DNA from: a virus | IMG/VR virus record: IMGVR_UViG_3300049259_000296 | Coordinates: 1-24,620 of that record | Length of the DNA: 24,620 bases | Direction: 5' to 3' (one strand) | In this document: positions 5,303 through 22,052 of the stretch, piece by piece | Layout of the letters: each line of letters starts with the position of its first letter | How positions within the stretch are numbered: position 1 is the first letter of the stretch | Translations under genes and position numbers: made by a program | The notes under the pieces: model-generated | Told to the model about the DNA's origin: nothing | Seen by the model: only the letters and a program-made list of their open reading frames with translations | The model's database searches: none

Positions 5303-6159
5303 CTACATCAGAGGCTTGCCGCCAGTTACGGCGATCGTCGCACCAGACGTGAAGCTTGAAAGCGGATCGGCCAGCATAACGTAGGCCGTGGCAAGCTCCG
5401 CCGGCTGTGCCGGGCGCTTCATCGGGTACTTCATTCCGAAATTCGAAACGGCTTTCTCATCCATCGTTGATGGTATGAGAGGCGTCCACACGGGGCCGGG
5501 TGCAACGCAGTTGGCGCGGATACCCTTCTCGGCGAGGAGCTGTGCCAGACCTCCCGTAAAGTTTTGGATGGCGCCTTTGGTAGTCGCATAAGCAAGCAGC
5601 GACGGATTCGGCACGTCCGCGTTGATCGACGTGGTGTTGATGATGGCACTGCCGGGCTTCATGTGCGGCACAGCCGCCTTACTCAAATGAAACATCGCAT
5701 GGATGTTGACCTTGAACGTCAGCTCCCATTCCTCATCGGTAATTTCATCGATTATTTTAAGCTCGACTGATGGGCTGCGTTGTTGACCAGGATATTGACC
5801 CCGCCGAGATCCTTGACGGCTCGGTCGATGATTGATCGGCAATGCTGCGGCGACTGTATGTCGCCCGGCACGAGCACAGCCTTCCGTCCGGCCTTTTCAA
5901 CCCAGTGTTTTGTCTCCTCGGCATCCTTGTGTTCGCTCAAATAGGCGATCAGCACGTCGGCGCCTTCACGCGCGAAGGCAATGGCGACCGCGCGTCCGAT
6001 GCCGCTGTCCGCTCCGGTGATCACGGCCTTCAGGCCCGCGAGCTTTCCTGAGCCGTTGTAGGATTGCTCGCCGTGGTCCGGCCCGGGCGACATCTTGCTC
6101 GTCTCACCGGGCATTGGCTGCTGTTGCGACGGAAACGGCGGCTGGGGGTGCTTATTCAT
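5303..6159 (-). pseudogene. SDR family oxidoreductase, frameshifted
   Basis: Two overlapping leftward frames together give one short-chain dehydrogenase of the YhdF-like type, about 285 residues. The first part starts at ATG 6159 (GAGGAG about 10 nt upstream) with the typical proline/glutamine-rich leader and the cofactor motif TGADSGIG at residues 48-55, then NNAAH. It ends at a TAA at 5752-5754. The second part continues in another frame with DEITDEEWELTFKVNIHAMF, the catalytic serine in INTTSIN, the YATTK active-site pair and the family C-terminus TGGKPLM. The frames cross in a short A-rich tract at about 5752-5770, so one missing base (or two extra) would explain the break. The family reduces or oxidises small alcohols or sugars with NAD(P) and is often a general-stress gene. 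It is either a recent pseudogene or a sequencing error. Confidence 0.85.
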
Positions 6160-6184
6160 CGGGCTGGGGCTCCTCACGGAAACC

Positions 6185-6210
6185 AACACTGCCCGACGAA
6201 CACAAGTTCC
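6185..6210 (-). promoter_or_regulatory. Candidate EcfG (general stress) promoter for the SDR gene
   Basis: On the minus strand GGAAC (6210-6206) is followed after exactly 17 nt by TGTT (6188-6185). The alphaproteobacterial EcfG consensus is GGAAC-N16/17-CGTT, so there is one mismatch in the -10 element. A start site about 7 nt further would leave a short leader containing GAGGAG before ATG 6159, which fits well. Regulation by PhyR/EcfG is inferred from this match alone. Confidence 0.5.
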
Positions 6211-6354
6211 TAGCTCTCGTGGCACTTTCGACGGCAAGCGGACCGATTAGGCATCTAGAGGACGGGGACAGCTACGTCGCGTTGATTGAGCCTTTCAGCC
6301 CTATGAATGTGCGCCGTTAAGCGGTTACGATATCTGGAACACAGGGGGACTTTC

Positions 6355-8202: not shown

Positions 8203-8943
8203 ATGCCAAAAACCTTCTTGGGTAGGCACGTCCAGGATGACGCTACTTCCGGTAAAAAGATCGGGAGAAGGTGGGTCAGCTACTTGAGAGTGTCCACTGA
8301 GCACCAAGGTGTATCGGGGTTGGGAATTGGCGCGCAACGGAAGGCCGTAGAAGACTACCTCTCCTCAGTTAGCGGCGTCCTGACCGAAGAGTTTGTTGAA
8401 GTTGAGAGTGGCCGGCGTCCCGATCGCCCACAGCTCACACAAGCTTTGGCCTGTTGCAAAAGAAACAAGGCGGACTTGGTTGTCGCGAAGCTGGACCGTT
8501 TGGCGCGCAATGTCGCATTTATCTCCAAACTCATGGAAGCGGGTGTCCATTTCGTTGCAGCCGATATGCCCGAAGCCAACCGGCTAACCATTCATGTCAT
8601 GGCCGCCTTCGCCGAGTACGAACGAGAGCTAATCAGCATCCGCGTGAAAGCAGCACTCGCGGTCGCAAAATCTCGCGGCGTGAAGCTAGGAGGCCCGAAG
8701 ATTCGGGTGGCTCAAGCCAACGCTCGCATCTCCATTATGTCCAAGTACGCCCGGTTAGATGCAAACGTGCTGCCCATCATCCGGCAAATACAGAGCCAAG
8801 GCGTCAAAACGTATGTCGCGATAGCGAAGGCACTCACCAGCCGAAGCGTGCCGACACCGCGGGGGGCGGAGAAATGGTGCCCGTGCACCGTCGCTCGCAT
8901 ACTCGGACGCGCTGAGTACGCCGGCTATCTTTCCGTCGTTTGA
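8203..8943 (+). CDS. Small serine recombinase (resolvase/invertase family)
   Basis: The 246-residue protein carries the serine-recombinase catalytic domain. YLRVST holds the active-site serine (S31), with its arginine partner R29. SGLGIGAQR follows, then AKLDRLARN (about 105-113) and AAFAEYERELISIRVKAAL (about 140-158), where the long E helix begins. The C-terminal section (PIIRQIQSQGVKTYVAIAKAL...) is a recombinase-type helix-turn-helix arm ending in KWCPCTVARIL. Length and layout match the small resolvase-like proteins common in rhizobial islands. The N-terminus is about 20 residues longer than usual and the ribosome binding site at 8203 is weak, so the true start is uncertain. It is related to, but clearly diverged from, the recombinase at 21354. 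It probably moves or resolves the adjacent element. Confidence 0.88.
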   Translation: MPKTFLGRHVQDDATSGKKIGRRWVSYLRVSTEHQGVSGLGIGAQRKAVEDYLSSVSGVLTEEFVEVESGRRPDRPQLTQALACCKRNKADLVVAKLDRLARNVAFISKLMEAGVHFVAADMPEANRLTIHVMAAFAEYERELISIRVKAALAVAKSRGVKLGGPKIRVAQANARISIMSKYARLDANVLPIIRQIQSQGVKTYVAIAKALTSRSVPTPRGAEKWCPCTVARILGRAEYAGYLSVV

Positions 8944-8992
8944 CGGCGTCACCCGATGAATTCGAGCTCCCGGCGCTTCCGTCAGTTCGAGG

Positions 8993-9394
8993 CTAAGCGG
9001 AAAACTGGGCCGATTGATCCGTCCAGATCACCGGGAAGGGACGCATCAGCGATGCGAGATCTAAGCTCTGCGGATTTCTTTCGCTGACGATCAGTTCGAT
9101 GGTGTCCGGTGCCAGCAATGTCAGCCGTAGAACGCGCCCGACATATGCCTCGTTGATTCTCTCCGCCTCGGCGATCTCGACAATCGTGGCATAGGTCCCA
9201 TTTTCCAGAAGCTGCTGCCAGCGGAAGGCTCGCGCGAGGGCTTTGGCCATTGAGTTGTCGGTCCGATGGCTGAACGTGGGGATGCTTTTGCCGTCCGGAG
9301 CGAGGACCAGCTTCTTGCCGCCGCGCTTGCGGATGGTGATTGGAATACGGACGGTGATCGTGCGCTCGTCACTCTTGATCTTAGGCTTTGCCAT
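8993..9394 (-). CDS. Small conserved protein with an HTH-like segment, last gene of the recombinase operon
   Basis: The 133-residue basic protein begins at ATG 9394, overlapping the recombinase stop in TGATG; a GTG one codon earlier is the alternative. The N-terminus is lysine/arginine-rich (KPKIKSDERTITVRIPITIRKRGGKK). The centre (ATIVEIAEAERINEAYVGRVLRLTLLAP, about 67-95) resembles a KorB/ParB-like helix-turn-helix. From memory, this protein often follows DUF2924-associated recombinases in rhizobial genomes. It may be a DNA-binding accessory factor or regulator. No enzymatic motif is visible. Confidence 0.75.
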   Translation of the reverse strand: MAKPKIKSDERTITVRIPITIRKRGGKKLVLAPDGKSIPTFSHRTDNSMAKALARAFRWQQLLENGTYATIVEIAEAERINEAYVGRVLRLTLLAPDTIELIVSERNPQSLDLASLMRPFPVIWTDQSAQFSA

Positions 9395-10707
9395 CACGCC
9401 GCCCTCGCTTTTGTGCCCACCGCCCGGAGATCGTTGGTGATGTTCGCCAACCCTTCGATCCTGAGCCGAATGTCCAGCCCGTCGAGGCTCACATCAACCC
9501 GCTCGACGAGAAGCTGGACGACTCGCGCCTGCTCTGCGGGAAACAGCTCGTTCCAGAGTGGGTCTAGGCGATGGAGCGCTTCCCTCACCTCTCCTTCCGC
9601 GATGCCAGGTATCAACTGTTTCGCCTTGCGCCAGGTCCGGACGATAATTTCGGGCGCGCGGAGTAAGCCGCGCACTTGGTCGACAACAGCGTTTTCGATT
9701 TCGGCAGCCGGTACGCGGCGGATCGAGCAGTCGGACGCGTCGTGCTTCAGCAAATCGTTGGCGATGTAGTAGCGATAGAGTCGTCCGCGCTTCCGTGTAT
9801 GAGTCGGTGTCATGGCGCAGCCAGTCGGGCCGAAGATGATGCCCTTCAGCAAGGCGGGTGTTTGTGCCCGTGCCCGCGCTGACCGCTTACGAGCGTTCTC
9901 AGTGAGAGTGGCATGGACCTTGTCCCAAAGCTGGCGCGACACGATCGGCTTGTGCTCGCCTAGGTACGACTCGCCCTTGTGAACCGCTTCTCCGATGTAA
10001 ACGCGGTTCTTGAGCAGCTGGTAGAGGTAGCCTTTGTCCACTAGCCGACCATTCTTGCCCTTTACGCCTTCCGCGCGCAGCTGTCGCACCAGAACCGTCG
10101 CCGATCCGACTTTCGTGAACCGCTCGAAGATCATTCGAACGGCCGCGGCCTCCTGGTTATTCACCTCCAGCTTCCGATCCTTCACGTCGTAGCCGAGCGG
10201 CGTCCAGCCGCCCATCCACATGCCCTTGCGGCGGGATGCGGCAACCTTGTCGCGGATACGCTCGCCGATGACCTCGCGTTCGAATTGGGCGAATGAGAGC
10301 AGCATGTTGAGGGTCAGCCGTCCCATTGAGGTGGTGGTGTTGAACTGCTGCGTCACGCTGACGAAAGTCACCTTCTTAAGTTCAAACGCGTCCATGAGCT
10401 TCATGAAGTCCGACAGTGAGCGACTGAAGCGATCGAGCTTGTAAGCCAGCACGATGTCGACACGGTCGCTATCGATATCGGCCAAGAGACGCTTCAGCGC
10501 AGGACGGTCCAACGTGCCGCCGGACACGCCGCCATCGTCATAGCGGTCGGGGACCAGGACCCAGCCTTCGGCCTTCTGGCTTGTAATGTAGGCTTCGCAA
10601 GACTCGCGCTGAGCATCCAGCGAGTTGAATTCCATCTCCAAACCCTCTTCGGAGGACTTGCGGGTGTAGATCGCGCAGCGGAGCTTTCGCACGATGGGCT
10701 TCTTCAT
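9394..10707 (-). CDS. Large serine recombinase (recombinase family protein)
   Basis: The 437-residue protein has a resolvase-type catalytic domain (about 1-155). YTRKSS contains R16 and the catalytic serine S18, followed by SLDAQRESCEAYI, LAYKLDRFSRS and FAQFEREVIGERIRDK. A recombinase domain (about 175-280) contains GWTPLGYDVKDRKL and LLKNRVYIGEAVHKG. A degenerate zinc-ribbon region follows (about 295-340, GCAMTPTHTRKRGRLYRYY ... DCSIRRVPAAEIE), and then a helical C-terminal arm. It starts with an ATGA overlap on the DUF2924 gene and its stop overlaps the next start, so translation is coupled across the operon. Such recombinases integrate or excise elements between short att sites. It is the strongest candidate for having brought in the island. 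Confidence 0.92.
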   Translation of the reverse strand: MKKPIVRKLRCAIYTRKSSEEGLEMEFNSLDAQRESCEAYITSQKAEGWVLVPDRYDDGGVSGGTLDRPALKRLLADIDSDRVDIVLAYKLDRFSRSLSDFMKLMDAFELKKVTFVSVTQQFNTTTSMGRLTLNMLLSFAQFEREVIGERIRDKVAASRRKGMWMGGWTPLGYDVKDRKLEVNNQEAAAVRMIFERFTKVGSATVLVRQLRAEGVKGKNGRLVDKGYLYQLLKNRVYIGEAVHKGESYLGEHKPIVSRQLWDKVHATLTENARKRSARARAQTPALLKGIIFGPTGCAMTPTHTRKRGRLYRYYIANDLLKHDASDCSIRRVPAAEIENAVVDQVRGLLRAPEIIVRTWRKAKQLIPGIAEGEVREALHRLDPLWNELFPAEQARVVQLLVERVDVSLDGLDIRLRIEGLANITNDLRAVGTKARAA

Positions 10708-11153
10708 GCGACACCCTTGCGGTTCTTGAGACCAAAGAAGACCCAGCCATTCCAGCGCGTTCCAGTGATGGCCCGCGCGATGGCCGAGAGCGACTGATAG
10801 GGACAGCCCTGATATTCAAAGCCTTCGGTGCGCACCGTGACGCAGTGATCAATGCCTTGCCATTCACGGACCAGGCGCGTACCCGCAACAGGCCGATCTT
10901 GCGATCGTCGGCGGCTTCGAACGGCGGGATCGCCACCGTCGAGTACTTCGCCCAGCTTGCGGAGCAGTTTCACGGTCTCGGGTTTGAGCCCACCGTATGC
11001 CAGTTCCTGGATGCGATAGGCGAGCCGATGCTCCAGGAAGCGCCTGTTGTAGAGCGGCGGCTCGGTTTCGAAGAGATCGCGCCATTGTTGCTTCAGCTGC
11101 TTGATGGGCGCGTGTTTCAGAGCCGCGATGCGGGCCAACACGGTATCAGTCAA
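10704..11153 (-). CDS. DUF2924 domain-containing protein
   Basis: The 149-residue protein starts at TTG 11153, with GGAAGGAG about 7 nt upstream, and overlaps the preceding gene by TTGA. The features I recognise as DUF2924 are LKQQWRDLFETEPPLYNRRFLEHRLAYRIQELAYGGL (about 19-55) and the C-terminal CPYQSLSAIARAITGTRWNGWVFFGL, which resembles a small DNA-binding or intasome-type fold (SAIAR.ITG..WNG..FFGL). The family has no experimentally assigned function that I know of and is almost always next to a serine recombinase. Here the 4-bp overlap with that gene suggests stoichiometric co-production. A role as recombination directionality factor or DNA-binding partner is inference. Confidence 0.88.
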   Translation of the reverse strand: MTDTVLARIAALKHAPIKQLKQQWRDLFETEPPLYNRRFLEHRLAYRIQELAYGGLKPETVKLLRKLGEVLDGGDPAVRSRRRSQDRPVAGTRLVREWQGIDHCVTVRTEGFEYQGCPYQSLSAIARAITGTRWNGWVFFGLKNRKGVA

Positions 11154-11491: not shown

Positions 11492-12865
11492 ATGACAACG
11501 AATTTGGCGTCGATTTCAGCGCGAAACGAACTGCTCTCGGCCGCGCAGTACGGAGAAATCACGTCAGCAGAGGCCGAGGCCAAAGCTGCAGAAATGGGCT
11601 GGCCTCCATTCGAGAGGCAACCAGCACTTCCTGCATTCGACCCGATGCTCGAGGCTAGATGGTCACTGGTGATGACAGTGGCATGGATTGCCTGGCGTGA
11701 TCTCGCATTAGTCCGCGAGCAGCATAGTGGCTTCCGGGCTGATAGTACGCATTGGTTGTTTCGCGAATGGAACGGCCCAGCTCCAGAAGGTGGCGTGGAG
11801 CGTCATGCCGGCTATTTTGTTGAGACCTGGTCCAAATCGTCAGCGACGCGCCTTTCGCTTGTCGACATAATATTGGAAGGCCGAGACGAGTTTCCGCCAA
11901 CTCGTCAAATGTCCGTGGCGGATGCGCGGGAAATCCTATGGAGAGCCTTGTCTGAGGGGCGCTTGGTCGCTGAGGCTTTGGACTCATCTGGGAAACCGAT
12001 CGAAATACCGACGATCGAGTGGTCTTACCTGAAGCTCTATGAAGAGCGAGAACTCGACGTTCTCAAGCACAACGCACTGGACAACGGGGCTGCTTTTACC
12101 GACGTCAAATTCAGGCGCGAAGATGTGCTGGGGCTATGGCACCAAATTACTTATGTGAAAGCTGCATTGGAGGACACCTATCTGATAGACGAGTCCATGG
12201 TCGAACCTGTCGAAAATCAGACGGCGGGCTACGTTCCCCTTTGTTCGGCGCTTCACTGGATGATGACGCGAGGCGGAATGCTGCGGCTGCGCCTCGATGA
12301 CGAAGAGGCATGGGATGCGGCATGTGACAAGCTAATCCCGTCGATCCACGCCGGGCGTGTTGAACTCATCGGTTTGCCTCGGGGTGGTGCGCTCACAGAA
12401 AAAATCCCAGGCTACTCACTCCCTCTCGTCAAAGTTCTGCATCCTCTCAGATCCGATTTTTCTGATAGTGCGCTCTCCGCGCCTTCGCACATCGTATGCA
12501 CTCCCTTTGTCGATCAAGAGCACTGGTCCGCTGATTTCAATGATCGGCTGTATCTTAGAGGTCAAGCGCAGGCCGCCTGGACCCACCTTCAAGTCTGCAA
12601 ATCCGATGTATTGGACCGTTGCCCTCGTCCCGAGAAACGCGTGAAGCCGCAGCAGGATTGCTTTCATTGGCTGTTAGATCAGATGCGCGACAGTCCAAGC
12701 CGCCGACCGAAAACCAAGGAAATGTTCCGGAGAGAGGCCAACTCCAAGTTTTCGCTGCTGAAGGTCCGTCAATTCAATAGCGCCTGGGACCACGCCATAA
12801 TGGAGAGCGGCGCTTCGGCATGGTCCGCCCGGGGTCGGCCGAAATTAAATCAGAACGCTCACTGA
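11492..12865 (+). CDS. Hypothetical protein, 457 residues, divergent from the recombinase operon
   Basis: The gene starts at ATG 11492 with GGAG 6 nt upstream and is transcribed away from the recombinase operon across a 141-bp shared promoter region. I do not recognise a named family. Two halves appear to repeat one layout. An aromatic/hydrophobic helix (SLVMTVAWIAWRDLALV; VPLCSALHWMMTRGG) is followed by a D/E-A-..-L segment with A/GR(L/V) (ADAREILWRALSEGRLVAEAL; AWDAACDKLIPSIHAGRVELIGL) and then an EIP or KIPG turn. The tail (about 395-457) has SPSRRPKTKEMFRREANSKF ... RQFNSAWDHAI ... WSARGRPK, which looks like a basic helical DNA-binding end. Proteins with this tail occur in rhizobial mobile regions (from memory). 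A regulatory or DNA-binding role is only an inference. Confidence 0.75.
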   Translation: MTTNLASISARNELLSAAQYGEITSAEAEAKAAEMGWPPFERQPALPAFDPMLEARWSLVMTVAWIAWRDLALVREQHSGFRADSTHWLFREWNGPAPEGGVERHAGYFVETWSKSSATRLSLVDIILEGRDEFPPTRQMSVADAREILWRALSEGRLVAEALDSSGKPIEIPTIEWSYLKLYEERELDVLKHNALDNGAAFTDVKFRREDVLGLWHQITYVKAALEDTYLIDESMVEPVENQTAGYVPLCSALHWMMTRGGMLRLRLDDEEAWDAACDKLIPSIHAGRVELIGLPRGGALTEKIPGYSLPLVKVLHPLRSDFSDSALSAPSHIVCTPFVDQEHWSADFNDRLYLRGQAQAAWTHLQVCKSDVLDRCPRPEKRVKPQQDCFHWLLDQMRDSPSRRPKTKEMFRREANSKFSLLKVRQFNSAWDHAIMESGASAWSARGRPKLNQNAH

Positions 12866-12950: not shown

Positions 12951-13196
12951 TTGAACCCTCAGATCACCACAGCGCTCCCCCGAACTTTTTCTAATCCGCC
13001 AGACCTCCGTCACTTCAACCAGGTGCAACTGGCGCGACGTTGGAGCTTGAGCCCGCGGACGCTCGAACGCTGGCGTTGGCGCAGGCAAGGGCCTGACTTC
13101 CTGAAAGTAGGCGGACGCATCGTGTATCGCCTGGAGGACGTGGAAGCGTTCGAAATCGCCCAGTTGCACAGGCAGCCGCAGCAAAAACCGACATGA
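12951..13196 (+). CDS. Helix-turn-helix DNA-binding protein (excisionase/MerR-like)
   Basis: The 81-residue protein starts at TTG 12951 with GGAG 8 nt upstream; no other start codon fits. The sequence FNQVQLARRWSLSPRTLERWRWRRQGPDFLKVGGRIVYRLEDVEAFE (about 22-68) is a typical winged-helix HTH_17/excisionase fold: HTH, a tryptophan/arginine recognition helix, then the VGGR.VYR..DVE wing. It is the first gene of a five-gene chain joined by ATGA overlaps, and a natural candidate for a phage excisionase or regulator of the chain. Confidence 0.85.
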   Translation: MNPQITTALPRTFSNPPDLRHFNQVQLARRWSLSPRTLERWRWRRQGPDFLKVGGRIVYRLEDVEAFEIAQLHRQPQQKPT

Positions 13197-13462
13197 AAAA
13201 CCGGAGGTCGCGGGCGCGGCCTCCGGTCAGTGCGTTGCTCATTTCAACCAAGCCGCGCGGGCGCGCGACCAACACGGAACGATTTGCCATGTTCGAATAC
13301 ACCATCATCGCCACTCAACGCAACAAACGGCGCAGCCGCGGCAGCCGATTGCGCAGCATTCGTTGGCACGGCCCGCGTTTTATTCGCGGGCGCCGTGCCA
13401 GCAGGCTGACAACCGTCTGGACCCTCAAGCCGCGGCGCTTGAACCATGAGGTGCCGGCATGA
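13193..13462 (+). CDS. Small arginine-rich protein, second gene of the ATGA-linked chain
   Basis: The 89-residue frame starts inside the HTH gene's stop (ATGA, 13193-13196), and its own stop overlaps the next start (ATGA, 13459-13462). Junctions at both ends argue that it is translated. About a quarter of the residues are arginine or lysine, with no recognised domain; a central hydrophobic stretch reads MFEYTIIATQ. The gene also contains two strong hairpins, so the RNA structure rather than the peptide could be the conserved element. It is possibly a nucleic-acid-binding peptide or only a translational relay. Confidence 0.45.
   Translation: MKNRRSRARPPVSALLISTKPRGRATNTERFAMFEYTIIATQRNKRRSRGSRLRSIRWHGPRFIRGRRASRLTTVWTLKPRRLNHEVPA
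13200..13227. other. Strong hairpin at the start of the small basic gene, terminator-like on the minus strand
   Basis: ACCGGAGG (13200-13207) pairs with CCTCCGGT (13220-13227). Inner pairs including one G-U extend the stem to about 12 bp. An A5 tract lies on its left, so on the minus strand the hairpin is followed by TTTTT, the form of an intrinsic terminator for leftward transcription. On the plus strand it could attenuate or pause the operon. Confidence 0.55.
13365..13399. other. Long GC-rich stem-loop
   Basis: GGCACGGC (13365-13372) pairs with GCCGTGCC (13392-13399), and CCGCG (13373-13377) pairs with CGCGG (13385-13389). There is a 2-nt GC bulge on the right arm and a TTTTATT loop. No T-run follows, so this is not a simple terminator. 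Confidence 0.6.
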
Positions 13463-13677
13463 ACACCGACACCCTCTCCGACGACAACAGGCGCGAATAC
13501 ATCCTCGCGGAATTTCGCTGCGCTTTGATCAGAGCCCGACTTGCACAGTGCGACATCGAAGCTGTCGCGATCGCGCTCAAGAACAAGATCGTGACGCCCG
13601 AGCAGGCAGCGGCAATGTTCTGGGATTCCGAAGCCGTTCAGTTCCTAGGACTCGAACTGAATGGAGGCGGGCGATGA
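13459..13677 (+). CDS. Small hypothetical protein, third gene of the ATGA-linked chain
   Basis: The 72-residue acidic/helical protein (REYILAEFRCALIRARLAQC.IEAVAIALKNKIVTPEQAAAMFWDSEAVQFLG) starts in the ATGA at 13459 and stops in the ATGA at 13674-13677, directly upstream of the DUF3631 gene. It is predicted to be helical with no signal peptide. Small proteins of this kind precede DUF3631 genes in rhizobial prophages (from memory). Its function is unknown. The start is fixed by the overlap. Confidence 0.7.
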   Translation: MNTDTLSDDNRREYILAEFRCALIRARLAQCDIEAVAIALKNKIVTPEQAAAMFWDSEAVQFLGLELNGGGR

Positions 13678-15080
13678 ACAATCACGTAGCGAACGACTTG
13701 CGGTCCGACACCGCCGACAACGCCGAATTAGATGCCCAGGTGCTCGCCTTTAACGCCCGACAAGGTGAACGCGCCCTGCGCGCCGTCTACGACTTCTTAG
13801 GACGGTTCGTTTCGTATCCGAGCGAACATGCGCGCGTGGCACACGCCCTATGGATTGTTCACACTCACATGATGGCCCTTTGGGACTCGACCCCGCGGTT
13901 GGCATTTCTCTCGGCGGAGCCGGCGAGCGGCAAAACACGCGCCCTAGAAGTGACCGAGTTGTTGGTGCCGAACCCGGTCCCGACCGTGAACGTCTCTCCA
14001 GCCTATCTGTTTCGCAAAGTCGGAAGCGAAGAAGGAGCCACCATCCTCTACGACGAGATCGACACTGTGTTCGGGCCACGGGCGAAGGACAACGAGGACA
14101 TTCGCGGACTGCTCAACGCAGGACACCGGCGTGGAGCCACCACAGGCCGTTGCGTCATGCGTGGCAAGGAAGTCACGCTTGAGGAACTACCTGCCTATGC
14201 CGCCGTTGCACTCGCCGGTCTCGGGTGGTTGCCCGACACGATCTTGTCCAGATCGATCGTCGTGCGGATGAGAAGGCGCCACGCCGGCGAAAGGGTCGAA
14301 CCGTTCCGTCGGCGAATTCAGGAGATCGAAGGAATAGGCATCCGCGATCAGATCGCCGTTTGGGCACAATCGGTGCCATCTACGATTACGTACCCCGAGC
14401 TTCCCGAGCAAATCGTAGACCGAGACGCCGACATCTGGGAGCCGTTGATCGCTGTCGCAGATGCGGTCGGCGGTGGCTGGCCCGAAAGTGCGCGTGTGGC
14501 GGGTGTGGCGCTTGTGGCGGACTCCAAGGAAGCGGAGCCGAGCCTGGGCATCCGGTTGTTGCACGACTTGAGGGCCGTGTTCGGCGACGCCAAGGAGATG
14601 TCCAGCAAATCGATCCTTCGGGCGCTGCATGCGATCGAGGAGGGCCCGTGGGCCGACATGAAGGGCAAGCCACTCGATGAGCGAGGACTGTCCCACCGGC
14701 TGCGCCAGTACGGCATCAGGTCCAAGCCTGTCAGAACGGAGGGCGGAACACCAAAGGGCTACACCCGTGCCGACCTGCTTGATCAATGGACGAGGTATCT
14801 CCCCCCGTACCCCGCTATCTCCGCCACATCCGCCACATCCGCCACATCCGCCACGTCGATGCAGAACGGCGGGACAGGAGCGCAACAACCCTTTTCGGCC
14901 GATAATAAAGAAGCGAGTGAAATCAACGGTGTGGCGGATGTGGCGGATGTGGCGCTTCCCGGCGGTATGCGGCGGGTGTGTGCCCACTGCGACAAATCCG
15001 ATGGCGAGTTGCGCGAAGCGAGTGTCGGCGGCTGGCCGATTTGGTTGCATCCCGCCTGCACGCAGGCGTACCGGCCATGA
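13674..15080 (+). CDS. DUF3631 domain-containing P-loop ATPase, phage-type
   Basis: The frame is open further upstream, but the start is ATG 13674, which overlaps the preceding stop (ATGA), giving 468 residues. The N-terminal ATPase core has Walker A EPASGKT (82-88, K87) and Walker B ILYDEID (124-130). It then has LLNAGHRRGA and the VALAGLGWLPDTILSRSIVVRMRRR segment typical of DUF3631. The DUF3631 helical part (about 260-370) follows. The C-terminal tail holds SAT and VAD tripeptide runs encoded by 9-bp repeats. It ends in a small zinc-finger-like motif CAHC ... WLHPAC (about 440-462). DUF3631 proteins sit beside or are fused to primase/toprim domains in phages and islands, so a DNA-replication helicase-like role is likely. 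No primase is in the window. Confidence 0.85.
   Translation: MNNHVANDLRSDTADNAELDAQVLAFNARQGERALRAVYDFLGRFVSYPSEHARVAHALWIVHTHMMALWDSTPRLAFLSAEPASGKTRALEVTELLVPNPVPTVNVSPAYLFRKVGSEEGATILYDEIDTVFGPRAKDNEDIRGLLNAGHRRGATTGRCVMRGKEVTLEELPAYAAVALAGLGWLPDTILSRSIVVRMRRRHAGERVEPFRRRIQEIEGIGIRDQIAVWAQSVPSTITYPELPEQIVDRDADIWEPLIAVADAVGGGWPESARVAGVALVADSKEAEPSLGIRLLHDLRAVFGDAKEMSSKSILRALHAIEEGPWADMKGKPLDERGLSHRLRQYGIRSKPVRTEGGTPKGYTRADLLDQWTRYLPPYPAISATSATSATSATSMQNGGTGAQQPFSADNKEASEINGVADVADVALPGGMRRVCAHCDKSDGELREASVGGWPIWLHPACTQAYRP
14820..14957. repeat. Complementary blocks of a 9-bp repeat inside the DUF3631 gene
   Basis: Four copies of TCCGCCACA (last TCCGCCACG) run from 14820 to 14855. Their reverse complement TGTGGCGGA is repeated at 14931-14957, the third copy ending in CT. 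A perfect inverted match of 25 nt is possible, with a loop of about 75 nt and several slipped registers. A third block of the TGTGGCGNN type lies upstream at 14495-14521. In the protein these encode SAT and VAD repeats. Confidence 0.85.
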
Positions 15081-15397
15081 GAGGTCGGCAGCGGCTCCCC
15101 CAGCGCCGAGCGCACGAAGTCTTCGACTTCGAGCATGGCGGGCACCGCTACACCGCCGGTGTGGGAAGGTTCGAGGATGGAAGTTTAGCCGAGGTGTTCC
15201 TCAATGTGCCAGGACGGGTTGGCAGTAGCATCGAAGCCATGGCTCGGGATGCGGCCACACTCGCTTCGATCGCGCTCCAGTATGGCGCCCCGCCTGAGAC
15301 GCTTCGGCGGGCGCTTACAAGGAATGCAGATGGTAGTGCCGGAGGACCACTCGGAGTCCTCCTTGACTTGCTTGCCGTACCGCTGTCGTCTCGGTGA
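15077..15397 (+). CDS. Stand-alone TSCPD-domain protein (ribonucleotide-reductase C-terminal-like)
   Basis: ATG 15077 overlaps the DUF3631 stop (ATGA), giving 106 residues; an upstream in-frame extension would overlap the ATPase gene. HRYTAGVGRFEDGSLAEVFLNVPGRVGSSIEAMARDAATLASIALQYGAPPETLRRALTR matches the TSCPD fold found at the C-terminus of class II ribonucleotide reductases (GRF..G.LAEVF, then A.DAA.L.S.ALQ.G.P...I). The rest of the enzyme is missing. Free-standing copies occur in rhizobial phage-like regions (from memory). Its role is unknown, possibly nucleotide- or nucleic-acid-related. Confidence 0.75.
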   Translation: MRGRQRLPQRRAHEVFDFEHGGHRYTAGVGRFEDGSLAEVFLNVPGRVGSSIEAMARDAATLASIALQYGAPPETLRRALTRNADGSAGGPLGVLLDLLAVPLSSR

Positions 15398-15447: not shown

Positions 15448-16068
15448 ATGATCGACCAACACAAGAACGTGCCGTACATCGCAGTGGGCGCTTCCGGTGG
15501 CGAGGGCTTAAACGATATACGGGCTCTCCTTGCCGCACTTCCGCATCCCTTGAAGGCGGTTTTTCTTATTGTGCTTCACCGGCCTCCAGACCGAACAAGC
15601 AATCTGAGGGAAGTATTGTCCCGCTCAGCAAAGATGCCTGTGCGAGTAGCGGGTCAGGAGGAAACTTTGCGGCCGGGTTGCGCCTACATAGGCGAGCCCG
15701 ACCAACACCTGACATTGCTGGGAGCAGATGCGGAGCTGGTATCGGACCAACGAAGCATTCATAGAAATCGCACGATAGACTTGCTCTTCCAGTCGGTCGC
15801 CGTGCAAGCCAAAGACCAAGCTATTGGCGTTGTTCTCTCGGGCTCGCTCGACGACGGTTCGCGAGGACTTGCATCCATTCATCAAGCAGGCGGGGTGACG
15901 ATGGTCCTTACCCCGGAGCGCGATCGGCCGCCTGGCATGCGAGAGAACGCGATCGACTTCGATGGGCCAGTCAACATCATCGGGGCGGCCGAATTCATAG
16001 CGGACGCAATCAAGAAAATAGTTGAAAATCCGGGCGCTCCTCGAAAGCAGATTTTCGAGCGCGAATAA
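15448..16068 (+). CDS. CheB-type protein-glutamate methylesterase domain protein, solitary
   Basis: The 206-residue protein consists of the CheB methylesterase domain alone. GASGGEG contains the nucleophile S16, LHRPP the histidine H44, and LSGSLDDGSRG the aspartate D136, giving the complete catalytic triad. R.R.IDLLFQSVA and the proline-rich ERDRPPGMRENAI loop are also present. The N-terminal receiver domain of chemotaxis CheB is absent. No CheR, chemoreceptor or kinase is nearby. The family removes methyl groups from, or deamidates, chemoreceptor glutamates; stand-alone copies act on unknown partners. It lies between phage-derived genes, with 50 bp before it and 182 bp after it, so it is probably its own unit carried as cargo. 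Confidence 0.88.
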   Translation: MIDQHKNVPYIAVGASGGEGLNDIRALLAALPHPLKAVFLIVLHRPPDRTSNLREVLSRSAKMPVRVAGQEETLRPGCAYIGEPDQHLTLLGADAELVSDQRSIHRNRTIDLLFQSVAVQAKDQAIGVVLSGSLDDGSRGLASIHQAGGVTMVLTPERDRPPGMRENAIDFDGPVNIIGAAEFIADAIKKIVENPGAPRKQIFERE

Positions 16069-16250
16069 ATCATCGGCGGGTTCGATCAGCCCTGCACGTC
16101 AGCCCACCGAAGCGTCTGCACCGGGGCCTCCGGCACTTCTTGCGCAGTCGCGCGTAATCATTCGAAGTCGACGGCAATTTCAAGCTACGTCACGGTGCAG
16201 TATGTTTGGGGTGCGGCGTAGCATCCTGCTGCAGACTACGAGGCCTGGAA

Positions 16251-16673
16251 ATGACGGACCGCAAGGATGATAATATTGTACCGCTGCCGAATGCCTCCGG
16301 CGTCGGCTACAAGCGCCCACCGGTGCACAGCCGGTTCAAGCCAGGGCAGAGCGGCAATCCGTCAGGCCGTGCCAAGGGCAGCCAGAACCTGAAGACGCTG
16401 TTCAACAAGATTCTGAAGGAACAGGTCTCGCTTCGTGAAGGCACCGAGGTCCGCAAGGTATCGAAGGCGGAGGCCATCATGCGTGGGCTGATCGTCGGCG
16501 CGTTGAAGGGCGACGGCAGGAGCATGGGGACCCTGTTTCGCTTCGCGGAGCAGACCGGACAGTTTGAAGAGCCCAAAGACCAGGTCGTGCAAATCCGAAG
16601 ATTGATCGTGGGCTGGAAGGACGGAGACGTCGAAGAGGAACTCCCAGCGATCAGGCAACTCAACAGAGACTGA
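16251..16673 (+). CDS. DUF5681 domain-containing phage-type protein
   Basis: The start is taken at ATG 16251 (140 residues); a longer frame from 16206 adds residues unlike the family. GYKRPPVHSRFKPGQSGNPSGRAKGSQNLKTLF (about 18-50) is the DUF5681 signature, followed by a helical region (EAIMRGLIVGALKGDGRSMGTLFRFAEQTGQFE). In phages and islands the family lies next to ParB-methyltransferase and terminase genes, as here (8 bp to the next gene). A small-terminase or DNA-binding packaging role has been suggested by context only. Confidence 0.82.
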   Translation: MTDRKDDNIVPLPNASGVGYKRPPVHSRFKPGQSGNPSGRAKGSQNLKTLFNKILKEQVSLREGTEVRKVSKAEAIMRGLIVGALKGDGRSMGTLFRFAEQTGQFEEPKDQVVQIRRLIVGWKDGDVEEELPAIRQLNRD

Positions 16674-16681
16674 CAAGGACC

Positions 16682-17938
16682 GTGCACGCGCCTCGCAAAA
16701 AGCCACAATGGCCGGCAGATCAAGTCGAACGCTGGCCCATTGCGAAGCTTGTGCCCAGCGCTCGCAATGCTCGGACTCACAGCGAGGCGCAGGTCGACCA
16801 GATTGCTGCTGCTATCCGTGAATGGGGCTGGACCACGCCAGTGCTGGTGACTGAGACCGGCACGATCATCGCCGGTCATGGCCGTGTCCGCGCGGCGAGG
16901 AAGCTGGGCTTGAGCGATGTGCCGGTCATGGTGGCCCGCGGCTGGACCAAGGCGCAGGTTCAGGCCTATGCGCTTGCCGACAACAAGCTGGCACTGAACG
17001 CCGGCTGGGATGACGCCCTCCTCTCAGTTGAATTGGCCGAGTTGCAGGAGATCGGTTTCGATATCGATCTGATCGGCTTCGACGCCGGCGAAATCGCGGC
17101 GCTCAATGCAAGCCAGTCAGTCGGCCTCACCGATCCTGACCAGGTGCCGGAGCTCCCACTCAATCCGACCTCACGGCTCGGCGATGTCTGGCTGCTCGGC
17201 CGGCATCGTCTGCTCTGCGGCGACAGCACTGCGCCGGCCGACGTGCAGAAGGTGCTCGGAAAGGTCCGACCAAACCTCATGGTCACCGACCCGCCATATG
17301 GCGTGAACTACGACCCGAACTGGCGCAATGATCGCGACCTGAGCCGATCGAAGCGCACCGGCAAAGTCGAGAACGACGAGCGCGCCGACTGGAGCGACGC
17401 ATGGGAGTTGTTTCCGGGCAGCATCGCCTACGTCTGGCACGCCGCCCTGCACTCACCGACATCCTATGAGAGCCTGCTCCGGACCGGGTTCACAATTCGA
17501 GCGCAGATCGTCTGGGCGAAGGAGCGACTCGTCATCGGCCGTGGCGATTATCACTGGCAGCACGAGCCCTGCTGGTATGCGGTGCGCAAGAAGGGCAATT
17601 GGACCGGCGACCGGAAGCAGACGACGCTCTGGAACATCCCGAACACCTGCCAGGACACCAAGTCGATCCACGGGACTCAGAAACCCGTCGAGTGCATGAA
17701 GCGGCCGATCGAGAACAACTCCTCGCCTGGCCAGGCCGTGTACGAACATTTCAGCGGCTCCGGGACGACGATTATCGCGGCCGAGATCGCTGGCCGCTCG
17801 TGTCATGCCATAGAGCTGGCGCCGCAGTACGTCGATGTCGCCGTCGAGCGGTGGCAGGCATTCACCGGCGAAGCCGCGCGACTGGAATCAGACGGTCGGG
17901 AGTTTGCTGAGGTTTCGACCGAACGGCGGCCATCATGA
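16682..17938 (+). CDS. ParB/Srx-domain-fused DNA methyltransferase (N4/N6 type, beta class)
   Basis: The 418-residue protein starts at GTG 16682 with AAGGA 5 nt upstream. Residues about 15-100 form a ParB/sulfiredoxin-like domain (IAKLVPSARNARTHSEAQVDQIAAAIREWGW ... IIAGHGRVRAARKLG). The methyltransferase follows, with the catalytic motif DPPYG at 203-207 and FSGSGTT at 357-363 (SAM binding), preceded by HGTQKPVE. Catalytic motif before SAM motif is the beta-class order, as in CcrM. It probably methylates adenine or cytosine amino groups in phage or host DNA. The ParB-like domain may bind nucleotide or nick DNA. No matching nuclease gene is adjacent, so it is an orphan methylase in the packaging operon. 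Its stop overlaps the next gene (ATGA). Confidence 0.9.
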   Translation: MHAPRKKPQWPADQVERWPIAKLVPSARNARTHSEAQVDQIAAAIREWGWTTPVLVTETGTIIAGHGRVRAARKLGLSDVPVMVARGWTKAQVQAYALADNKLALNAGWDDALLSVELAELQEIGFDIDLIGFDAGEIAALNASQSVGLTDPDQVPELPLNPTSRLGDVWLLGRHRLLCGDSTAPADVQKVLGKVRPNLMVTDPPYGVNYDPNWRNDRDLSRSKRTGKVENDERADWSDAWELFPGSIAYVWHAALHSPTSYESLLRTGFTIRAQIVWAKERLVIGRGDYHWQHEPCWYAVRKKGNWTGDRKQTTLWNIPNTCQDTKSIHGTQKPVECMKRPIENNSSPGQAVYEHFSGSGTTIIAAEIAGRSCHAIELAPQYVDVAVERWQAFTGEAARLESDGREFAEVSTERRPS

Positions 17939-18321
17939 GCCGGCCGGCATACAAGCCGGATGAAGCGCACCGACGTCAGGTCGAAGCCATGTCGGCCTAC
18001 GGCATTCCCGAGCCCGACATTGCCCGCGTGGTCGGAATCGATCCAAAGACGCTGCGCAAATACTACCGAGACGAACTGGACCTGGGATCGACCAAGGCCA
18101 ACGCTCAGGTGGCGGGGTTCCTGTTCAGCGCAGCCCGGAATGGGAACGTGACAGCGCAGATCTTCTGGCTGAAGACCCGCGCGCGCTGGAAGGAGACTCC
18201 CTCCGAGCACTGGCATACCGGTGCCATCGGGACCTTCGACATGACGCAGGTCACGGACGCGGTGCTGGAAAAGATGATCGGCACAACGCTCAAACTCGAG
18301 CCGATCACCGAGGACGGCTGA
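17935..18321 (+). CDS. Helix-turn-helix protein, probable small terminase subunit
   Basis: The 128-residue protein overlaps the methyltransferase stop (ATGA) and ends 2 bp before the large terminase. An HTH is visible at about residues 15-45 (RRQVEAMSAYGIPEPDIARVVGIDPKTLRKYY). It is followed by ANAQVAGFLFSAARNGNVTAQIFWLKTRARWKE, a segment I know from rhizobial phage proteins next to terminases. The small subunit recognises pac/cos DNA and loads the large subunit. The assignment rests on size, HTH and position. Confidence 0.8.
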   Translation: MSRPAYKPDEAHRRQVEAMSAYGIPEPDIARVVGIDPKTLRKYYRDELDLGSTKANAQVAGFLFSAARNGNVTAQIFWLKTRARWKETPSEHWHTGAIGTFDMTQVTDAVLEKMIGTTLKLEPITEDG

Positions 18322-18323
18322 CC

Positions 18324-19808
18324 ATGAAAGGTCCGCAGTCCACCGAGCAGGCTGCGGCGGAATTGCTCAAGCGCCGCAGGATCAGAAAGCATCTCGCTCA
18401 TTGGGGCCGGTACAAGGGCTTCGAGCCTGCACCGCATCATCAACTGATCTGCCAAGAGATCGACGCCTTCCTCGACAGCGATGACGAGGTGCTGCTGCTG
18501 TTCGCGCCCCCGGGTTCGGCCGAGAGCACCTGGGTGTCGGTTCTCTTTCCGGCGCAGTACCTGGCGCGGTTTCCCAAGAACAGCATCCTGGCAGCCACCC
18601 ACTCGGTCGAGTTCGCCCAGCGCTGGGGGCGAAAAGTTCGGAACGACATCGTGCTGGACTCGTCCGTACTGGGCATTGAGCTGGCACCGGATAGCCAAGC
18701 CTCTGATCGATGGGCACTGACCAGTGGCGGCGAATACTACGGTGTCGGTGCGGGCGTGGGCATTTCGGGCTTTCGTGCCGATCTCGGTCTGGGCGACGAC
18801 TTCTTCGGCAGCCGCGAGGATGCGTTCAGCGAGGCCGTCCGAAAGAAACGTTGGGAGTGGTACGTCGACGACTTCTCGGCCCGCCTGAAGCCCCGGGCCA
18901 AGCGGATTCTGATGAACACGCGATGGCACGCCGATGATGTGGCCGGGAAGGTCCTCGACCAGATCGAGCGAGGCATCGTCCGCGGCAGAGTCATCTCCAT
19001 GCCGGCCATAGCCGACGAGAACGACAGCCTTGGCCGGAAGCCGGGTGAGTTTCTCTGGGACGATCCGAACGGTTACGACTACGGCTCGTTCCTGCGCGCC
19101 CGGCAGCGCGAGACGTCGCCGATGATGTGGAGCGCGCTCTACCAGCAACGCCCCTCGCCCGAGGAGGGTGAATATTTCAAGTCGGATTGGCTGAAACCCT
19201 ACGACAAGCCACCGCCCCGCGAGACGCTCCGGATCTATGGCGCGAGCGACTACGCAGTGAGCGCGGACAAAGGCGATTTCACCGTTCATGTGCTGGTCGG
19301 GCTCGATCCCGAAGGCCGCATGTATCTCCTGGACGTTTGGCGCAAGCAGGCCAGCTCGGACGAGTGGATCGAGGCGTACTGCGACAAGGTCCTGCAATGG
19401 ACTCCGATGGAATGGGCCGAGGAGCAGGGTCAGATCAAAGCCGGCGTCGGACCGTTCCTCGACCGGCGCCAGCGAGAGCGGAATGCTTACTGCTACAGGC
19501 GGGCGTTTCCGACCCGCGGCGACAAGGCAGTCCGTGCCCAGTCGATCCGCGGGCGCATGGCACTTCAGGGGCTCTATGTGCCAATCGGTGCGCCCTGGTA
19601 TCCAGCCGTGCGATCGGAGTTGCTGTCATTCCCGGCCGGTAAACACGACGACATCGTCGATGCGCTGGGGCTGATCGGTCAGTTGCTCGACAACATGCTG
19701 GTGGGCCAAGCCCCTGCCCCTCCGCCAAAACCAAGTCTTGCCCGGGACTACGTCGCGTGGAAGCCGACCGGCATGTCGAACGATTGGATTGCCGATATCT
19801 GGCATTGA
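18324..19808 (+). CDS. Phage terminase large subunit with altered Walker A
   Basis: The 494-residue protein has the two-domain terminase layout. The ATPase part has FAPPGSAESTW (about 60-70), adenine/coupling segments (SILAATHSVEFAQRWGRKVRN, GISGFRADLGLGDDFFGSREDA) and RILMNTRWHADDVAGKVL. The RNase-H-like nuclease has YGASDYAVSADKGDFT (about 305-320), a central acidic EWAEEQGQIK, and AGKHDDIVDALG (about 438-449). The invariant P-loop lysine, expected as APPGSAKST, is glutamate here (GAG at 18522-18524, residue 67). The enzyme cuts and translocates phage DNA into a capsid. With K67E the motor is probably inactive, while the nuclease motifs remain. No portal gene follows. Confidence 0.92.
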   Translation: MKGPQSTEQAAAELLKRRRIRKHLAHWGRYKGFEPAPHHQLICQEIDAFLDSDDEVLLLFAPPGSAESTWVSVLFPAQYLARFPKNSILAATHSVEFAQRWGRKVRNDIVLDSSVLGIELAPDSQASDRWALTSGGEYYGVGAGVGISGFRADLGLGDDFFGSREDAFSEAVRKKRWEWYVDDFSARLKPRAKRILMNTRWHADDVAGKVLDQIERGIVRGRVISMPAIADENDSLGRKPGEFLWDDPNGYDYGSFLRARQRETSPMMWSALYQQRPSPEEGEYFKSDWLKPYDKPPPRETLRIYGASDYAVSADKGDFTVHVLVGLDPEGRMYLLDVWRKQASSDEWIEAYCDKVLQWTPMEWAEEQGQIKAGVGPFLDRRQRERNAYCYRRAFPTRGDKAVRAQSIRGRMALQGLYVPIGAPWYPAVRSELLSFPAGKHDDIVDALGLIGQLLDNMLVGQAPAPPPKPSLARDYVAWKPTGMSNDWIADIWH

Positions 19809-19990
19809 TCCACTGCGGACAAGCGCCAAGCGGCTGCTAAGGAGTGCAAAGCAGACATTGCGGAGACGCAGCTTAAAGTCGAAAATGACCCGATTGAGAC
19901 ATTGGTCGCCAGATTTTCTGCAACGCACGGCGCAGCAATTGTTCAGCGGTGTGGTAGGGTGCAATCCCTGGATTGAGAGGAGGCGCGAGC

Positions 19991-20962
19991 ATGAAGCGGC
20001 GCGACTTCATCACGCTCCTTGGCGGCGCGGCGGCGGCGTGGCCGCACGCGGCTCGGGGGCAGCCCGCCCCAAAGACACATTTCGTGCTATGGGTGTCGAC
20101 CGAGGCGCAGCCGGACCCCTTCATCGCCAGCTTTCGCGAAGGAATGCGCGAGCGTGGCTATGTCGAGGGGCAAAACCTCGCCTTTGTTCTCCGCTACGCG
20201 CCAGGCGATCCAGCGCGCCTGCGGGAAGCCCTTCCGGAACTCCTTGGCGTCCCGGCCGACTTAATCGTATCGAGCGGTCCGGCAATGCTAGCGATGAGGG
20301 CGGCGACCGGAAAGCCGATCCTGTTCGCAATCAGCGGCGATCCGGTCGAGTTGGGCATTGCCGAGAGCTTGGCGCGGCCGGGCAGGAATTTCACCGGGAC
20401 AACGTTCATGTCTTTGGACGTGGCGCAGAAACGCGTCCAGCTTTTGAAGGAGCTGCTGCCCGGCATGGGCAAGCTCGCGATACTGTCGCAGAAGAACCAC
20501 CCTGGCGAGCAGTCGGAGTACGGGGCCACGCGCGCTGCAGCGGACGCCATGTCCATCCATCTCGCCTACGTGCCTTTTGCAGCCGGTCCGGAACTCGACG
20601 GCGCTTTGCAGCGGGTCGCCGAAGCTGGCGCCAACGCCATGCTGGTCTTCCCCGATGGCGTGACGATGGTACATCGGGCAAAGATCGCAGACTTTGCTCT
20701 GTCGCATCGGCTGCCCTCGATGTTCGGATGGCGCGAGTACTGCGACGCAGGCGGCTTCGCCAGCTATGGGGGCAACCAGCGCGCGACCTATCGGCGGCTC
20801 GCGGCCTATGCGGACCGGCTCCTGCGCGGCGACAAGCCTCAGGATTTGCCGATCGAGCGGGTAACCCGGTTCGAGTTCGTCCTCAATCTCAAGGCTGCCA
20901 AGACGCTTGGCATGGACGTCCCGCCGACGGTGCTAGCTCGCGCGGATGAGGTGATCGAGTAG
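19991..20962 (+). CDS. ABC transporter substrate-binding protein, ABC_sub_bind type, Tat-exported
   Basis: The start is ATG 19991, with GAGAGGAGG about 8 nt upstream; a frame open from 19973 is less likely. The 323-residue protein opens with a Tat signal (MKRRDFITLLGGAAAAWPHAARG). The periplasmic binding domain shows FREGMRERGYVEGQNLAFVLRYAPGD, ADLIVSSGPAMLAMRAATGKPILFAISGDPVELG and the C-terminal FEFVLNLKAAKTLGMDVPPTVLARADEVIE, all typical of the PF04392 (TrpX-like) family. Bradyrhizobium genomes hold very many of these orphan binding proteins. No permease or ATPase is present here, so its transporter and ligand are unknown. Confidence 0.92.
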   Translation: MKRRDFITLLGGAAAAWPHAARGQPAPKTHFVLWVSTEAQPDPFIASFREGMRERGYVEGQNLAFVLRYAPGDPARLREALPELLGVPADLIVSSGPAMLAMRAATGKPILFAISGDPVELGIAESLARPGRNFTGTTFMSLDVAQKRVQLLKELLPGMGKLAILSQKNHPGEQSEYGATRAAADAMSIHLAYVPFAAGPELDGALQRVAEAGANAMLVFPDGVTMVHRAKIADFALSHRLPSMFGWREYCDAGGFASYGGNQRATYRRLAAYADRLLRGDKPQDLPIERVTRFEFVLNLKAAKTLGMDVPPTVLARADEVIE

Positions 20963-21353
20963 ACCAATCGATGTCCCCTTCTGGCACTTAGCCGACATTC
21001 AGACCTGTCCACTGTTCTGTCGCTATCGGGGGCAAAGCGGACATGGCCAAAATGGTCGCCGCCATCGCTCACCCGCGCGACACACGGCTGAGCCCCAGAA
21101 GGAAGTGACCCGCTTCGGGAGCGCGAGGGCCCTCGGCGGCCACAGCGACTTCTGGATTCGTTTTCTGCCCATATCCGAGGTGACGTAGCCTCGGGCGACA
21201 AACCGAGTCTGTGGCCATTTGTCGGAATCGTCGGGCACTTTTCGCTGCGCTTCGCACCGCTACGCTCATTCGCTGCTGCAACATGAAAACAGCAACTTAG
21301 TTGCTCAGAACTCGCCTACGTACAATCCGCAAACGGTGGTATGCCGTTTGTAC
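20963..21353. other. Intergenic stretch of about 390 bp with two dyads near its end
   Basis: No supported gene is seen. The left part resembles the repetitive non-coding tail that often follows these binding-protein genes in Bradyrhizobium (from memory). Near the end, AGCAACT-T-AGTTGCT (21291-21305) and CAAACGG-7 nt-CCGTTTG (21330-21350) lie upstream of the recombinase start at 21354. Confidence 0.5.
21291..21350. promoter_or_regulatory. Two dyads upstream of the second small recombinase (possible operator or res-type site)
   Basis: A 7+1+7 perfect dyad at 21291-21305 and a 7+7+7 dyad at 21330-21350 have centres about 42 bp apart, close to four helical turns. The second ends 3 nt before ATG 21354 and replaces any visible Shine-Dalgarno. 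Resolvase genes commonly bind dyads in their own upstream region. Assignment as res subsites or operator is inference. Confidence 0.4.
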
Positions 21354-22052
21354 ATGGAAAGCGCAGTCGCATATCTTCGAGTTTCGACGCAACGACAGCA
21401 GCGCTCTGGCCTCGGGATCGAAGCACAACGGGCAACCATCGCCAGGTTCGCCGAAGCCGAAGGCCTTACGATCATCGCGGAGTTCATCGAGGCCGAGTCC
21501 GGCAAGGGCGCCGATGCCTTGGATCGCCGGCCCCAGCTCGCGGCAGCCCTCGCAACAGCCAAATCGGCGAAGTGCAGCGTCCTGGTATCAAAGCTGGACC
21601 GATTATCGCGTGACGTCGCCTTCGTCGCGGGCCTGATGGCGCAACGCGTGCCATTCATCGTGGCCGAGCTGGGCCGGGATGCCGATCCCTTCATGATGCA
21701 CCTCTACGCGGCGCTGGCCGAGAAGGAACGACGGCTCATCTCCGAGCGCACCAAAGCCGCGCTAGCGGCGAAGAAGGCCAGTGGTGCCCGGCTGGGCAAT
21801 CCCTGCAATGTTGCGCAAGCCGGCGAACTGGGACGCAGCGCTCAGAGCGCGACCGCTGATGAGTTCGTCGCTGGATTGCTGCCGATCGTCCAGGCAATCC
21901 GCAGCATCGGTGCAGTGACACTGCGAGACATGACCGAAGCCCTCAATCAGCGCGGCATCCGATCTGCCCGCGGTGGTAGATGGCATGTGTCGTCGGTGAA
22001 GAACCTGCTTGCAAGAACGAGCACAATTCCGGGCACTGCAGCGCTTTCATAA
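21354..22052 (+). CDS. Small serine recombinase (resolvase family), second copy
   Basis: The start is set at ATG 21354 (232 residues), because [12 protein letters not shown] places the catalytic serine at S10 as in most resolvases; the open frame begins earlier at 21219 but its extra residues are not family-like. [22 protein letters not shown] (about 80-89) and [25 protein letters not shown] (about 122-146) complete the catalytic domain and E helix. The C-terminus ([42 protein letters not shown]) is the DNA-binding HTH. It has the same layout as the protein at 8203 but is clearly diverged from it. Together they bracket the island. Two dyads precede it. Confidence 0.9.

Follow-up and report, generated by a model that had tools for sequence, protein, structure and literature searches.

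The window spans a complete IMG/VR record (24,620 bases), and the large terminase subunit (TerL) that it encodes carries glutamate at the position of the Walker A lysine. The codon, GAG at 18522-18524, is codon 67 of the gene and lies within the stretch LLLFAPPGSAESTWVS. With modest confidence, the glutamate is read as a recent inactivating A-to-G change in an accessory TerL of an integrative element of about 11 kb. In broader terms, the glutamate most likely reflects either an accessory gene that has recently lost its function or a base-call error, rather than a novel enzyme. The substitution is probably the dead end of a single lineage or assembly; the element family around TerL is the more interesting result.

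Glutamate at the Walker A position of TerL

TerL is encoded at 18324..19808 (+) by an open frame of 494 aa. The frame matched phrog_38 of the PHROGs (E 8.6e-90) and the curated TerL model TIGR01630 (47.4 bits, cut-off 41.65), and scored 20.7 against Pfam Terminase_6N, just under the cut-off of 22. On alignment, the P-loop reads APPGSAEST in the window versus APPGSAKST in relatives. The Walker B residues GDD (157-159) and the nuclease motif residues SDYA (308-311), AEEQG (365-369) and HDDIVDA (441-447) agree with those of relatives. Within a 12-sequence TerL alignment, D158, D159, D309, E366 and E367 were invariant and D442 and D443 nearly so, and each of these residues is present in the window. 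There is no lysine elsewhere in the window P-loop (residues 56-72) that could take over, so loss of ATP use is expected. By analogy with T4 gp17, the Glu67 protein should neither bind nor hydrolyse ATP and hence could not pump DNA; the abolition of ATP hydrolysis proposed in the earlier note is retained as an expectation on the same grounds. Judged by its sequence, the protein is a TerL by descent that is without one defining residue of a working motor, and the missing Walker A lysine lowers the claim that it is a working packaging motor.

An AlphaFold model was made with 12 natural sequences and had a middling mean pLDDT of 64, with values below 50 at residues 62-68. The model puts residue 67 in a loop that joins strand 56-60 to helix 70-82 and falls within this region of pLDDT below 50. 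Solved terminases were reached only through fold comparison. The model was matched to the D6E large terminase (5oea; Z 13.8, rmsd 7.0, 310 aligned) and, for T4 gp17, to both 3cpe (Z 13.2, rmsd 15.9, 339 aligned) and the ATPase domain alone (2o0j; Z 12.0, rmsd 4.3, 200 aligned). T4 gp17 and D6E TerL have the two-domain ATPase-nuclease fold that is also seen in the window model; identity to the window protein is 10-12%, and the Walker A lysine is absent from the window. A search of solved-structure sequences with the single TerL protein had given two chance matches (E 0.29 and 0.39), and the same search with a TerL profile returned nothing.

Lysine was found at the site in 99 of 99 TerL relatives covering it (92 distinct sequences, 26-80% identity), 93 of which have at least 50% identity to the window TerL. 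Left out of this count are 117 loci retrieved solely with a Lys-specific pattern, 8 duplicates, and loci such as L030 and L037 whose sequence misses the site. An earlier tally over viral scans 1 and 2 plus one MAG had given lysine in 86/86 relatives covering the site. Pattern scans of the viral collection, all of which omit the window's own record, returned no match to a PPGSAEST-type pattern (degenerate, plus T), and none for glutamate with a narrower pattern or with a variant using another serine codon. The PPGSAKST-type (Lys) version of the same degenerate pattern returned at least 120 matches. Together, the 99/99 lysines and the absence of glutamate pattern matches indicate that the substitution is private to the window record within the collections covered. 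Close homologues with glutamate, named in the earlier note as a route to refutation, were looked for and not found, and refutation by that route does not apply.

The lysine codons of relatives were AAG in 145 cases and AAA in 71 (216 in total, including Lys-selected loci), which places GAG one transition away. The replacement of the Walker A lysine by a single base change in an otherwise intact TerL, as described in the earlier note, is thereby upheld, with the frame open and the nuclease motifs kept.

Bacterial genome contigs were also searched with the protein. No relative was found in the first scan, and one MAG was found in the second. In 385 genomes of the class to which that MAG belongs, two matches were obtained at E up to 1e-100, and the MAG itself accounts for one. 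The genome G367 was picked because its DNA resembles the left part of the window, and 391 genomes of its family contained seven matches.

Conservation of the remainder of the protein was assessed over residues 20-440 using 44 relatives of at least 60% identity. These relatives share 101 invariant columns, and the window TerL breaks two of them (E47D and K67E). In a leave-one-out test (43 relatives plus the window), other TerLs depart at 0-6 positions and the window at 2; the departures in L029, L049 and L007 are gaps. Pairwise dN/dS of the window TerL against L028, L032 and L002 was 0.07-0.14, at a high dS of 1.5-2.8. The small number of departures at invariant columns suggests that the window TerL was under constraint until recently, and the gene gives no sign of long neutral drift. 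As the remainder of TerL is intact, loss of the ATPase, if real, would be recent, where recent is relative to a divergence of approximately 21% from the nearest relative, no closer one having been found for dating.

The same conservation bears on a second explanation, that the glutamate codon is a base-calling or assembly error and the true sequence has lysine. The change is a single transition, occurs in one record and in no relative, and sits in a TerL otherwise as conserved as other TerLs. A short-chain dehydrogenase gene on the minus strand of the same record is split over two frames, which may also be an error, and because of this split the error reading is kept under consideration. The split could equally be a true pseudogene, however, and the frames of the window TerL, TerS and methylase are without disruption. 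An error is considered rather unlikely, although it is weighted well above the functional alternatives discussed below.

The recombinase element and its flanks

TerS and TerL form the end of a recombinase element of about 11 kb. The element probably begins with a small recombinase-associated protein (8993..9397, -; phrog_14161, 6.7e-39), which is followed by a large serine recombinase, or integrase (9394..10707, -; Resolvase, Recombinase and Zn-ribbon domains; phrog_95 integrase, 1.1e-106) and a DUF2924 protein (10704..11153, -; Pfam 1e-51). Genes on the plus strand then comprise a protein of no known family (11492..12865; no Pfam or PHROG match), the C-terminal part of which is common to the sister element L241 (46%), an HTH_17 protein resembling excisionase/AlpA-like regulators (12951..13196; Pfam 5.1e-6, phrog_66 6.6e-6) and a DUF3631 protein (13446..15080; Pfam 3.6e-57). 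The DUF3631 protein is probably a replication gene; three plasmid relatives were found, all actinobacterial and below 60% identity. Next are a TSCPD-like protein (14978..15397, +; Pfam 3.6e-4, below the cut-off), which also precedes the methylase in the sister loci L248 and L250 (65-68% identity), and a CheB-methylesterase-like gene (15448..16068, +; Pfam 1.4e-37). The GC3 of the latter is 0.60 versus 0.71-0.80 for six other element genes, and it is possibly cargo. A DUF5681 protein (16206..16673, +; Pfam 3.5e-21) and a ParB-N / N6-N4 DNA methylase fusion (16682..17938, +; Pfam ParB_N and N6_N4_Mtase; phrog_498, 6.8e-140) precede the small terminase subunit-like TerS (17935..18321, +; 128 aa). 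TerS matched phrog_309 at 1.3e-16 and has relatives of up to 75% identity, with no Pfam or NCBIfam match.

Directly after TerL lies an ABC transporter substrate-binding protein (19973..20962, +; Pfam ABC_sub_bind 4.7e-30, no PHROG), and then a small serine resolvase common to the sister loci (21219..22052, +; Pfam Resolvase), the start of which is likely near 21354. With putative borders, the element would measure 10.8 kb from 8993 to the TerL end, or 13.1 kb if it extends through the resolvase. The attachment-site repeats of serine integrases can be very short; an attachment-site search for direct repeats of more than 12 bases between the flanks gave none in 9 loci. Upstream of the resolvase, the match to sister-locus DNA begins abruptly at 21271-21272 for 10 of 14 distinct loci (11 of 15 rows, L233 and L321 being one genome). 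Position 21271 is near a conserved block with an inverted repeat, and the sharp start is possibly a recombination site or an operator.

Both flanks consist of genes of bacterial type. The left flank holds a DUF11-repeat protein, part of a type IIG restriction-methylase, the split short-chain dehydrogenase and a long ORF (6799-8031); the right flank holds the ABC substrate-binding protein, the resolvase and a methyltransferase-like gene. The type IIG gene (3773-5110), directly after the DUF11-repeat protein, is truncated to a C-terminal restriction enzyme-methyltransferase fragment (PADLOC profile positions 597-1028 of 1136). The dehydrogenase (5306-6237, -) comprises two frames matching consecutive parts of the Pfam profile and is either a frameshifted pseudogene or a sequence error. 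A PHROGs search of 23 window ORFs turned up no gene for portal, capsid, tail or lysis, and TerS and TerL were the only head/packaging matches; several of the 23 match PHROG families of unknown function, or none.

Sister loci with and without TerL

A set of 19 sister loci was drawn from 259 TerS relatives, 80 of them listed, plus 3 of 12 genomes with a TerS match. It comprised the viral contigs L241-L256 (TerS identity approximately 61% or more) and the genomes G509, G726 and G729 (59-74%). ParB-methylase, TerS and mostly a resolvase are common to these loci. A methylase match precedes TerS in all 19, although in L256 this is the N-terminal part only, 2.8 kb upstream. Most of the viral contigs are 4-8 kb long, and capsid genes could lie further away.

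TerL follows TerS in 6 of the 19 (L241, L242, L244, L248, L249 and L256). In L241, L242 and L244 it is of the window's type (59-71%), and in L248, L249 and L256 of a distant type (26-28%). Lysine occupies the Walker A site in all five sister TerLs that cover it, L241 ending before the site. In a further 12 of the 19, TerS is followed by a resolvase related to that at 21219-22052 with no TerL match between; the remaining locus, L253, is truncated by the end of its contig. The 12 TerL-less TerS-resolvase intervals yielded no TerL remnant, the best matches (E 0.18 for DNA, 0.29 for protein) being at chance level. Several of these intervals resemble each other, as for L246 and L254 (81% over 538 aligned bases). 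Longer TerS-resolvase stretches occur in L247 and L323, and that of L247 holds other ORFs. By eye, from ORFs and the aligned interval, L246 (1690-2100), L247 (2031-2270), L254 and L252 seem to share a protein of approximately 80 aa between TerS and the resolvase.

Selection was estimated in sister pairs. TerL gave dN/dS 0.11 at dS 0.07 in L242/L244 and 0.019 at dS 0.81 in L248/L249, and TerS gave 0.051 at dS 0.70 in L246/L254. As L246 and L254 both have the arrangement TerS, interval, resolvase, this was probably inherited from an ancestor without TerL. Low dN/dS and remnant-free, mutually similar intervals are read as marks of working genes, and purifying selection on TerS and TerL in the sister pairs (dN/dS 0.02-0.11) makes the family look satellite-like. 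Some copies are evidently decaying, as 5 of the 19 loci (L245, L248, L249, L255 and L323 of G729) have a methylase broken into two pieces and the TerS of G729 carries an internal stop.

Under the favoured explanation, that of a recent inactivating change in an accessory TerL, the element would integrate and excise, now or formerly, through its serine recombinase, and TerS would mark element DNA for packaging. TerL would be optional, with a helper phage providing it in other cases, as for the TerS-only islands of PMC6092414. An A-to-G transition in codon 67 of this copy would have replaced the Walker A lysine by glutamate, and the resulting protein probably still folds and retains its nuclease site. 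The change would be tolerated because TerL is accessory in its carrier, sister loci often being without it. Purifying selection on TerL in L242/L244 and L248/L249 counts against this explanation, since it implies that TerL, where present, is not always free to decay. The glutamate codon with its uniqueness, the conservation elsewhere in the protein, the gene content and the sister loci are shown directly; from these observations we infer the loss of ATPase, its recency, integration and packaging, the dispensability of TerL in this host and the exact borders of the element. The weights attached to the explanations are approximate, and their sum slightly exceeds one because readings of the carrier and readings of the mutation are not strictly exclusive.

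The sister TerLs also bear on the suggestion, made in the earlier note, that the terminase was repurposed, here considered as an ATP-independent nuclease or DNA-binding protein. The intact frame and nuclease motifs are consistent with such a role, but a recent single mutation would equally leave the nuclease domain intact. The suggestion gained no positive support, as glutamate is shared by no relative, no second ATPase motif is altered and the site-covering sister TerLs keep lysine. Repurposing is regarded as highly unlikely. If the glutamate form were nevertheless functional, it would be a TerL without the ATP-binding lysine.

Relation to satellites and prophages

Phage-inducible chromosomal islands (PICIs), as set out in PMC6092414, have an integrase at one end, an alpA-like master regulator, a replication module (primase/initiator), no structural or lytic genes, a length of approximately 12-15 kb, defined attachment sites and mobilisation by a helper; some islands carry TerS only. 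The window element resembles these in having an integrase at one end (the large serine recombinase at 9394-10707, -), a candidate regulator-like HTH protein (HTH_17/phrog_66, E ~6e-6), a TerS and a putative replication gene (DUF3631). Structural and lytic genes are likewise absent from the 23 window ORFs as searched against PHROGs, and the size, 10.8-13.1 kb by its putative borders, would be close. Replication-type domains also occur in sister elements (Prim-Pol in L241; Toprim_3 and D5_N in L233). Unlike PICIs, the element has a large serine recombinase with DUF2924, a ParB-methylase and, in some members, TerL. It is satellite-like at most and is not classed as a PICI.

It is suggested tentatively, as plausible but short of probable, that the recombinase-DUF2924-ParB-methylase-TerS elements are a family of Alphaproteobacteria phage satellites with their own TerS, sometimes a TerL, and no capsid genes. 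If this is true, such a recurrent capsid-less element, with its terminase genes maintained under selection, would parasitise packaging in Alphaproteobacteria. No description of the family was found in titles and the beginnings of abstracts from the satellite, PICI and terminase literature under narrow search terms, and the literature looked at in this form held nothing relevant on Walker A substitutions in defective-prophage terminases.

TerL works as a ring. This property, together with the satellite-like character of the element, was counted in favour of a further reading, in which an ATPase-dead TerL is a poison subunit that joins and blocks the packaging motor of a co-resident phage. PMC6092414 lists interference with helper phages among the features of PICIs. 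Against a poison subunit, the site-covering sister TerLs have lysine and glutamate occurs in one record alone, and the reading is considered extremely improbable. The combined version, in which such a satellite family exists and the dead TerL is kept here to join and stall or redirect the packaging motor of a helper phage, is also very improbable.

The gene order downstream of TerL was compared with that of relatives. Of the 41 relatives with at least 4.5 kb of sequence downstream of TerL, 34 carry a portal gene within 6 kb, a count that omits Lys-pattern loci and duplicates (46 of 93 when these are included). Portals were found with two probes, both confirmed as phrog_156 portal. The seven relatives without a portal match were L042, L016, L239, L036, L040, L272 and L273. 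In the window, the ABC gene is first after TerL and there is no portal in the following 4.8 kb. The viral contigs L002, L032 and L028 have a TerL of the same TIGR01630 / phrog_38 type (75-80% identity) with nuclease and Walker B motifs as in the window, the L028 sequence ending at residue 376; glutamate replaces their Walker A lysine in the window. L002 and L032 have a small gene upstream (labelled KGG type in this analysis) and a phrog_156 portal downstream, whereas the window has ParB-methylase and TerS upstream and the ABC gene downstream. In L040, an in-frame insert of approximately 263 codons (8583-9371) splits TerL after residue 198, immediately ahead of TRWH; this insert matches the Pfam intein splicing domain (1.4e-11) and is an intein in the ATPase domain.

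These portal counts bear on the possibility of an ordinary decaying prophage in which the right arm (portal, capsid, tail) has been deleted and TerL is now accumulating changes. Phages with the window's TerL type usually have the portal downstream, and a fuller recombinase element is represented by L234, in which recombinase, DUF2924, HTH and methylase are followed by TerS, TerL and portal. The split methylases and the interrupted TerS of G729 are also consistent with decay. Some features recall phage WO of Wolbachia: in PMC10299305, the recombinase of WO-related regions adjoins DUF2924 and the methylase has an N-terminal ParB domain, as in the window. Those regions carry portal and baseplate genes (PMC10299305), and none were found in the window. 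On the other side, the layout with resolvase recurs in many loci, TerS is under purifying selection in L246/L254 and the 12 TerL-less intervals hold no detectable TerL remnant. A decaying prophage is considered unlikely. The earlier note had offered early decay of a prophage: early decay fits the nearly intact protein, and the prophage part is doubtful, given the lack of portal, capsid, tail and lysis genes among the 23 ORFs and the purifying selection in sister loci with or without TerL.

Other loci show the same backbone in shorter forms. At the left end of L233 (G509), the recombinase (70%), DUF2924 (67%) and HTH (60%) genes are accompanied by Toprim and D5_N genes; onward are the methylase, TerS and resolvase and then, by inspection, ORFs of bacterial type. 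A second lineage has a P27-type TerS (NCBIfam TIGR01558 for L228 and L230). In L228, L230 and L231 (G690, G424 and G610), short elements of recombinase, DUF2924, methylase and P27 TerS are followed by ORFs of bacterial type. With TerL and portal following in L234 and ORFs of bacterial type in L228, L230 and L231, fuller prophage forms and forms without nearby capsid genes share this backbone. L228 and L235 have the same downstream ORFs, which suggests one preferred site or common descent.
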